Positions 10,029 to 11,540 of a stretch of 64,000 bases of DNA are shown one piece after another; within the stretch, counting starts at the first letter, position 1, and every line of letters starts with the position of its first letter. Location: contig CANFTW010000003.1 of the NCBI GenBank assembly GCA_947450025.1, positions 62,001 to 126,000 of the forward strand, read 5' to 3'. This DNA is from Bacteroidota bacterium. GTDB taxonomy: Bacteria; Bacteroidota; Bacteroidia; B-17B0; Aurantibacillaceae. A program made the translations under genes and the position numbers. Under the pieces are notes generated by a model. The model was not told the DNA's origin, did no database searches, and worked only from the letters and a program-made list of their open reading frames with translations.

Positions 10029-10049
10029 GTTTTATAGCCTTTAATAAAA

Positions 10050-10080
10050 AAATCCCCAATCTAAATTAGATTGGAGATTT
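10050..10080 (-). terminator. Terminator of the small lipoprotein gene
   Basis: A 13-bp stem (10050-10062 with 10068-10080; G-T wobble on the minus-strand RNA) and a 5-base loop, followed on the minus strand by a T run. It lies 22 bp beyond the stop at 10103. Confidence 0.85.
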
Positions 10081-10102
10081 TACATTTGAATAATATGGTT
10101 TA

Positions 10103-10384
10103 TTATTTAACTGAACAAGCTGAAGAAATATCAGCATAAGTTCCATTAGGATCTGCATTTAAATCATCATTTACATAATTCATTTGCGCCTCCGTTTCTT
10201 TACATGAAGCAGATGCTTGAGCATCCTTCATTTTCTCATCCATCGCTTTCACTTGAGTTAATGTCACTTCAGATCCATTACCATCAGTATATGTAGTAAC
10301 ACATTCGCACGAATACGATTTTTTACATGATGTCATAGCCGAAAGACTAACTAACACAAAAGCACTTAATACTAATTTTTTCAT
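10103..10384 (-). CDS. Small putative lipoprotein, unknown function
   Basis: A 93-residue protein with a lipoprotein signal (MKKLVLSAFVLVSLSAMTSC, Cys at 20) followed by KKSYSCECVTTYTDGNG. It has four further Cys residues, two close together near the N-terminus (CEC) and two towards the C-terminus, which could form disulfides. I recognise no family. It shares a near-identical 5' region, including the first codons, with the collagen-like lipoprotein gene upstream, although the two proteins are unrelated beyond the signal peptide. Being well terminated and provided with a conserved leader suggests a real, regulated gene. Confidence 0.8.
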   Translation of the reverse strand: MKKLVLSAFVLVSLSAMTSCKKSYSCECVTTYTDGNGSEVTLTQVKAMDEKMKDAQASASCKETEAQMNYVNDDLNADPNGTYADISSACSVK

Positions 10385-10470
10385 ATTTTTTGTTTTTATT
10401 ATTTTGCCTACTCTTTAGCTTTTCAGCACACGCTCCTCAGTTTACTTGTGAGGTCAAGTATTTCGTAAAA
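10385..10470 (-). promoter_or_regulatory. Duplicated leader element, copy A (candidate structured RNA)
   Basis: The 5' region of the small lipoprotein gene. With the start codon (10382-10470) it matches 10990-11078 at 85 of 89 positions. In minus-strand RNA the order is TACTTG (10460-10455), A, CCTCA (10453-10449), CAAGTA (10448-10443), AAC, TGAGG (10439-10435). TACTTG pairs with CAAGTA and CCTCA with TGAGG. These stems interleave as an H-type pseudoknot. A short GCT-GAAA-AGC hairpin with a GNRA loop lies closer to the gene (10418-10427). I match it to no known riboswitch class. A duplicated DNA operator is the alternative reading. Confidence 0.6.
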
Positions 10471-10485
10471 AAATAATTTATTTTA

Positions 10486-10992
10486 TTAATCTTTTAGATT
10501 ATATACTGCTTTCACTTCAGAATAATTCTTAGTGTTTACTCCTTGTTTAATCATAGCAGGGGGGATAACAACAATTTTAAATGGTATTCCTCCGGGGTTA
10601 CTAGGGGCAGATCCAGAGTTTAATGTAACCGAAATTGTAACTTGTCCCAAAGAATAGAAATAATTAAATTCAACTGATTGATATGAAAATGGTAAAGCAC
10701 TCCAGGTAGTTTGGGCCGTATTTCCTAAAAAAACCATAACACTTCCATTAGACACAACTGATGATGTAATTCCAGAAACGTTAAATATTGCATCATATTC
10801 AGTACCACTCAAAGTCCAACTAGCATTCGTTGTCGTTCCTACATATGTTGTTATATTTGAAACTCCGTTTGTTCCATTTGCTCCTGCGGGGCCTACTGGA
10901 CCAGTATCTCCTTTTTTACAAGAGGAAAGAACTATTCCTATAATTAAAACTACGCCCGTTAAAACTGCCTTTTTGTTAAATGTTTTTTTCAT
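10486..10992 (-). CDS. Putative lipoprotein with short collagen-like segment
   Basis: A 168-residue protein. An N-terminal lipoprotein signal ends in VLSSC (Cys at 25). It is followed by KK and five Gly-X-Y triplets (GDTGPVGPAGANGTNG), a pattern common in Bacteroidota surface lipoproteins. The rest (about 110 residues) is Ser/Thr/Val-rich and predicted mainly beta, with IPFKIVVIPP near the end. No enzymatic motif is visible. It probably sits on the cell surface. It is transcribed ahead of the smaller lipoprotein gene with 101 bp between them, and both genes carry the duplicated leader. Confidence 0.8.
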   Translation of the reverse strand: MKKTFNKKAVLTGVVLIIGIVLSSCKKGDTGPVGPAGANGTNGVSNITTYVGTTTNASWTLSGTEYDAIFNVSGITSSVVSNGSVMVFLGNTAQTTWSALPFSYQSVEFNYFYSLGQVTISVTLNSGSAPSNPGGIPFKIVVIPPAMIKQGVNTKNYSEVKAVYNLKD

Positions 10993-11078
10993 ATTTTTTG
11001 TTTCTATTATTTTGCCTACTCTTTAGCTTTTCAGCAAACGCTCCTCAGTTTACTTGTGAGGCCAAGTATTTCTTAAAA
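10993..11078 (-). promoter_or_regulatory. Duplicated leader element, copy B
   Basis: Second copy of the 89-bp element (10990-11078 with the start codon). Both arms of each pseudoknot stem and the GNRA-type hairpin are unchanged from copy A. The four differences fall in the A-rich spacer before the start codon, in the GTGT/GTTT segment, at the single base between TACTTG and CCTCA, and at the far edge. The sequence beyond the element differs completely, so its limits are sharp. Confidence 0.6.
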
Positions 11079-11097
11079 TAATCATAAAAATACAATT

Positions 11098-11116
11098 ATT
11101 GTCATTTATTGACAAT
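11098..11116. promoter_or_regulatory. Palindromic operator-like site
   Basis: ATTGTCA-TTTAT-TGACAAT is a perfect inverted repeat with 7-bp arms and a 5-bp centre. It lies between the divergent collagen-like lipoprotein gene and the XRE regulator gene, 47 bp before the regulator's first possible start and 20 bp beyond leader copy B. A dimeric helix-turn-helix protein, perhaps the adjacent regulator, is a plausible ligand; that is inference. Confidence 0.5.
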
Positions 11117-11162: not shown

Positions 11163-11540
11163 TTGGACGTGCAGAATAAAATAGGTGAAAAAATTCGACA
11201 GTTAAGATTACTTAATGGTTTAAGCCAAGAAGATGTGGCCGAAGAAATTGGTATGAGCCATGGTAATTTTGGAAAAATTGAACGCGGTGAAATTGATGTT
11301 AACTCTACTCACCTAGTGGCTATTGCCAAAATACTAAAAGTAAACGTCAGCGATTTTTTTGAACACAAAAATAAGCCTATCGTAAATGAACCAAAAGGAG
11401 AATATGGTTATGCTACAAAAGCAGAACTCTCAGACATTGTTTTAGCTATTGAACGTTTAACAAAGATTGTAGAAAAGCTTCAAGATAAAAATTCCGAAAA
11501 AAAAGAAAATCAAAAAAAGGGATATGGGGAGAAAAAATAA
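11163..11540 (+). CDS. XRE-family helix-turn-helix transcriptional regulator
   Basis: A 125-residue protein. Residues 5-65 form a Cro/CI-type domain: IGEKIRQLRLLNGLSQEDVA, then EEIGMSHGNFGKIERGE as the recognition helix region, then DVNSTHLVAIAKILKVNVSDFFE. The C-terminal third is Lys/Glu-rich and probably a flexible or coiled tail. The start is TTG 11163 or GTG 11169; a stop codon lies one codon upstream of the TTG and no in-frame ATG precedes the domain. The palindrome at 11098-11116 is a candidate autoregulatory site. Convergent with ftsX. Targets unknown. Confidence 0.88.
   Translation: MDVQNKIGEKIRQLRLLNGLSQEDVAEEIGMSHGNFGKIERGEIDVNSTHLVAIAKILKVNVSDFFEHKNKPIVNEPKGEYGYATKAELSDIVLAIERLTKIVEKLQDKNSEKKENQKKGYGEKK

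Follow-up and report, generated by a model that had tools for sequence, protein, structure and literature searches.

Two lipoprotein genes with a shared leader

Within the window, i.e. the whole 64,000-nt stretch of DNA analyzed here, two lipoprotein genes follow each other on the minus strand, each preceded by a leader. The two near-identical leaders lie at 10470-10382 and 11078-10990, as given in the preliminary description. In the order of transcription, the locus comprises:

10990..11083, minus strand: leader copy 2, the shared block as far as the lipoprotein gene 2 start codon, with a DUF805b match at 11013-11044
10486..10992, minus strand: lipoprotein gene 2, 168 aa, with a collagen-like GPVGPAG stretch
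10382..10475, minus strand: leader copy 1, the shared block as far as the lipoprotein gene 1 start codon, with a DUF805b match at 10405-10436
10103..10384, minus strand: lipoprotein gene 1, 93 aa, Cys-rich, with a lipobox
10049..10081, minus strand: terminator-like hairpin past lipoprotein gene 1

The shared block runs from about 10475 and 11083, with its upstream edge ∼5 nt past that first reported (10470/11078), to the ATG plus a few A-rich codons beyond it, after which similarity ends; upstream of the block, identity drops to ∼53%, which is background. A whole-genome search recovered the partner copy at 94–95% identity (E = 3e-36), and the match between the two leaders is far beyond chance. 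The coding regions are indeed unrelated past the first codons, as BLAST found no match between the 93-aa and 168-aa proteins when they were compared jointly, and no Pfam family was found for the product of gene 1. Their N-termini are alike (MKK...), but similar first residues are usual for lipoprotein signal peptides.

The first hairpin of leader copy 1 (P1) begins ∼25 nt 3′ of the gene 2 stop codon, a hairpin scan found no terminator between lipoprotein genes 2 and 1, and the two genes, lipoprotein 2 followed by lipoprotein 1, probably form one operon. Because this gap is so short and the terminator-like hairpin comes only after gene 1, both leaders are probably part of one mRNA. A perfect 7-bp inverted repeat, ATTGTCA-N5-TGACAAT, at 11098-11116 is a candidate operator; it lies where only a short gap separates the lipoprotein operon from a divergently oriented gene for an HTH_3 (Cro/C1-type) regulator at 11163.

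The leaders belong to the DUF805 clan

The preliminary description recognized no named family, which proved incorrect: comparison with Rfam identified both copies as DUF805b (RF02914), with 31.9 bits (E 5.6e-7) for copy 2 and 30.4 bits (E 1.9e-6) for copy 1. These matches are significant and cover the full model, positions 1–35 (core sequence and P2 stem), but both remain below the curated gathering cut-off of 35.6 bits. The related DUF805 model (RF03081, cut-off 51.1 bits) had no above-cut-off match within the window. Direct reading against the alignments showed the clan layout in both copies, with P1, PK1, P2 and PK2 in order together with GAAAA and GAGUA, where the use of helix order and these two motifs as the mark of the clan is our own reading and not Rfam's definition. 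The location also agrees, as both copies immediately precede a start codon in a genome whose closest named relatives are Bacteroidota assemblies, and the 24 nt from GAGUA to the ATG fall within the range of the family (16–29 nt). Judged by sequence, the window copies are thus sub-threshold but significant members of the DUF805/DUF805b clan (CL00115).

With DUF805b they share the inner core AGC...GCU, GAAAA, GAGUAGGC and the position upstream of Bacteroidota genes; they differ in having a 5′ hairpin and PK1, both of which are absent from the 35-position model. With DUF805 they share an overall layout in which the core comes after a 5′ hairpin, but the P1 loop and PK1 measure 10 nt and 2 bp in DUF805 compared to 6 nt and 5 bp in the window subtype, and P2 is GGC/GCC in the former and AGC/GCU in the latter. 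The copies represent a short-loop, long-pseudoknot subtype that is mostly missed by Rfam thresholds. The element is already catalogued in Bacteroidota as a cis-regulatory RNA, and the structure and subtype described here go beyond those thresholds. The DUF805 RNA was reportedly first described by Weinberg et al. in 2017; searches for DUF805b or DUF805 RNA yielded no full-text literature match and no functional account.

A fold with two covarying pseudoknots

The predicted fold has the following parts:

10444..10459 (copy 1) and 11052-11067 (copy 2), minus strand: P1 hairpin, ACUUG/CAAGU with loop ACCUCA (GCCUCA in copy 2), by direct reading
10435..10453 (copy 1), minus strand: PK1, loop CCUCA (10453-10449) with UGAGG (10439-10435); the equivalent pairing covaries in relatives
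11057-11061 with 11043-11047 (copy 2), minus strand: the corresponding PK1
10417..10434 (copy 1), minus strand: P2, AGC (10434-10432) with GCU (10419-10417)
10406..10427 (copy 1), minus strand: PK2, GCU (10427-10425) with GGC (10408-10406), supported by covariation
10385..10405 (copy 1), minus strand: A-rich spacer to the AUG, lacking a Shine-Dalgarno (SD) sequence and a terminator

The loop of P1, whose position is backed by covariation in relatives, pairs with the strand just before P2 to form PK1, and the small P2 is interlocked with PK2, which encloses the invariant GAAAA and GAGUA. In an alignment of 67 relatives, 92.9% of the cells of this structure are paired, compared to 85.9 ± 0.4 after shuffling, and 57 cells are changed on both sides, compared to 12.1 ± 2.5 (0/500 shuffles), whereas slid registers give 6 to 20; these counts are strong but are not formal probabilities, because shuffling leaves kinship in and the elements were picked by their core motif. 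Both-side changes occur in each of P1, PK1 and PK2. The pair types in PK1 include CC/GG, AC/GU, CU/AG and UC/GA, and 83 of 86 are paired, against 69.6 ± 1.6 in shuffled data (43 rows, in three of which P1 is misassigned). For the outer pair of P2, a wider set of 166 elements has 163 paired (135 shuffled), with G-C 129, A-U 28, C-G 2 and U-A 1 across relatives; comparing the two Rfam families, P2 also switches from G-C to A-U. PK2 is formed by NCC before GAAAAG and GGN′ after GAGUA. Its third pair is G-C in 13 and A-U in 12 of the AGC/GCU-type elements (27/28 paired, 19.1 expected) and is usually unformed in DUF805-type members.

All four helices are present in the window copies. PK1, which in the main subtype is just two pairs long, is lengthened to CCUCA/UGAGG and the P1 loop has 6 nt. 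Other short-loop members, at loci L150, L151, L149 and L185, where nothing reaches the Rfam cut-offs, have CUGU/ACAG, CCCGU/ACGGG and CCAU/GUGG as PK1, and CCUG/CAGG also occurs in the subtype; among its members the length of P1 varies, and the subtype alignment places the P1 register off by one. Nested minimum-free-energy folding of the two copies gave unremarkable values (z −0.7 and −1.2) by a method that is blind to pseudoknots. In some DUF805b elements (L053, L057 and L115) a long perfect hairpin, e.g. CCUGUGCAUCAU...AUGAUGCACAGG, lies just upstream, in the place of the DUF805 P1.

The preliminary description had proposed a regulatory leader, acting as RNA or DNA. The first part is supported, and because of the compensatory covariation in P1, P2, PK1 and PK2 we favor an element that functions as RNA.

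Distribution and local copying

Further copies had been predicted, and three clear ones were found elsewhere in the genome, on contigs C6 (35 bits), C1 (26 bits) and C8, the last being a DUF805 element above the cut-off (63.2 bits). DUF805b was detected at E ≤ 0.001 in 69 of 87 genomes of the same family and in 0 of 14 control genomes, and DUF805 at E ≤ 1e-4 in 47 of 87 and in 1 of 14 (a Bacteroides), respectively. The DUF805 model alone recovered the element in 122 of 395 genomes of the class, representing 74 of 197 genera. An exact 28-base pattern had no match in the genome contigs, and a plain DNA search in relatives matched mostly the A-rich tail.

These distant copies show that the element is not confined to one local duplication, but the near-identity of the window pair, which had been taken as functional conservation, has a different origin. 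Unlinked elements upstream of non-homologous genes share on average 66% identity (99th percentile 85%, maximum 93%). Since family members usually share only about that much, the 94% of the window pair suggests a recent local copy, and the pair is very likely the product of recent copying or conversion of the leader. Linked elements upstream of unrelated genes in other genomes are also highly similar, at 96% (L150), 90% (L008) and 89% (L339); L008 is from the same genus and adjoins a homologue of lipoprotein 1 whose neighborhood differs. Taken together, the window pair and these linked pairs suggest that leaders are copied or converted locally with boundaries close to those of the RNA. In two genomes of the same family (L150 and L151), arrays of up to four leaders were observed, one per unrelated gene; by eye, the genes include those for PI-PLC-like and tail-collar-like proteins.

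We also considered that the leader travels with its gene, which homologue searches with both lipoproteins showed is mostly not the case. Only a minority of the homologues of either lipoprotein carry a leader, meaning that these genes can occur without it; beyond the query-source sequences, one further lipoprotein-2 homologue has it (L256).

Genes downstream of the leader

The set of downstream genes agrees with the lipoprotein regulon that had been suggested and extends it to exported proteins. Lipoproteins account for 41 of 172 downstream proteins compared to 42 of 534 in the background (odds ratio 3.7, p 2e-7), other N-terminal export signals for 59 compared to 93, and exported proteins in total for 100 compared to 135, as called by a simple heuristic based on signal peptides, lipobox and hydrophobicity. 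Recurrent Pfam families are rhodopsin, TRL, TM2, DUF805, GldL_N, DUF378 and PixA, and T9SS sorting tails are found as well.

Position relative to the start codon

The distance from GAGUA to the AUG is 16–29 nt in 168 of 177 elements and 19–26 nt in 144, with a sharp peak at 21–24, where starts were sought only 8–35 nt downstream. The spacer after GGN averages 19 nt and is 62% A in the 177 elements. None of these spacers contains an SD-like motif, 4 contain a T5 run, and 134 have an A at position −3. In Flavobacterium johnsoniae, mRNAs lack an SD sequence, the region from −20 to +20 is less structured, and an A at −3 is favorable (PMC6847099); the fold described here ends ∼20 nt 5′ of the AUG, just outside this low-structure zone.

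Given the short A-rich spacer and the scarcity of T5 runs, the stretch between the fold and the gene is too small to hold a terminator or to allow transcription attenuation. As, in addition, both window leaders are probably in one mRNA, control would be exerted at each start codon, and the most likely role of the leader is to control translation initiation separately for each cistron.

Mechanism and alternatives

We regard it as probable that the element is a double-pseudoknot RNA of the clan that controls translation of each cistron in response to a signal, and that the window pair arose by recent copying of the leader. A bound signal, a small molecule or a protein, would drive folding or unfolding of PK2, and the state of PK2 would alter the access of the 30S subunit to the start region independently of SD pairing. 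Each leader-bearing cistron would thereby be controlled separately, and the genes that carry the leader would encode a set of envelope and secreted proteins that responds to the signal. In the window, one leader would be a recent copy or conversion product of the other within the probable operon. More tentatively, the whole DUF805 clan may be a class of riboswitches, or of RNAs that sense a protein, through which a global signal, e.g. envelope stress or a second messenger, governs the SD-independent translation of surface and secreted proteins across Bacteroidota; its aptamer would spread by copying from one gene to an unrelated neighbor.

The strongest competitor, which we consider rather unlikely, is a constitutive booster of translation or mRNA stability, i.e. 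a fixed, unregulated 5′-UTR module whose role would be to protect the mRNA or to present the A-rich start region, so that a gene that acquires a copy is expressed more strongly. Such a portable module is equally compatible with the patchy occurrence among homologues, the local copying to unrelated neighbors and the great diversity of downstream genes; however, the interlocked pseudoknots, together with the invariant GAAAA and GAGUA, resemble a binding core, and a bias towards exported proteins is not expected for a general booster. That the element is an operator or promoter module of the DNA, lacking any RNA function, is very improbable. Upstream of the elements, TAnnTTTG motifs resembling the Bacteroidota promoter are more frequent than expected (29 versus 10), but at no single fixed distance: the fixed distance is that to the AUG, not to the promoter. 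Furthermore, 15 of 77 same-strand elements begin within 40 nt of the stop codon of the preceding ORF, and base pairs in all four helices covary.

A functionless recent duplication would readily explain that the window pair, at 0.94 identity, exceeds every one of 5129 unlinked pairs compared. This notion, to which we give almost no weight, is refuted by the distant, covarying copies: homologues with compensatory changes occur in the 122 of 395 class genomes recovered with the DUF805 model alone, three more copies reside in this genome, and the same kind of local copying recurs in other genomes. Similarly remote is the idea that the 5′ UTR contains a processing site or a self-cleaving ribozyme; the small double-pseudoknot architecture with invariant bases would suit this, yet no Rfam ribozyme family is matched, and a fixed distance to the AUG is atypical of ribozymes.

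Comparison with known regulatory RNAs

The preQ1-I, SAM-II and SAM-V riboswitches are H-type pseudoknots that act on translation by sequestering the SD sequence. The leader resembles them in its short pseudoknot right before the start region and its invariant loop bases, but it has no SD sequence, its fold ends ∼20 nt before the AUG, and no Rfam match to any of the three was found in the window copies. Regulons of c-di-GMP riboswitches comprise many copies per genome upstream of diverse genes for surface, adhesion and secreted proteins. The likeness of the present element, with its many copies and its surface and secreted genes, is one of logic only, as sequence and structure are unrelated.

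For a DUF805-type RNA, our analysis offers a testable structure in which two pseudoknots covary; it also points to translation that proceeds without SD pairing as the likely level of action and to a gene set of lipoproteins, exported proteins, rhodopsin and GldL-like proteins. The element could help to explain how translation initiation is controlled in the SD-less mRNAs of Bacteroidota, and the local copying of leaders alone between unrelated genes provides a clear example of possible regulon recruitment. In the genus, each of the four rhodopsin genes detected carries the leader (L058, L072, L135 and L183), which hints at a link to light or starvation.
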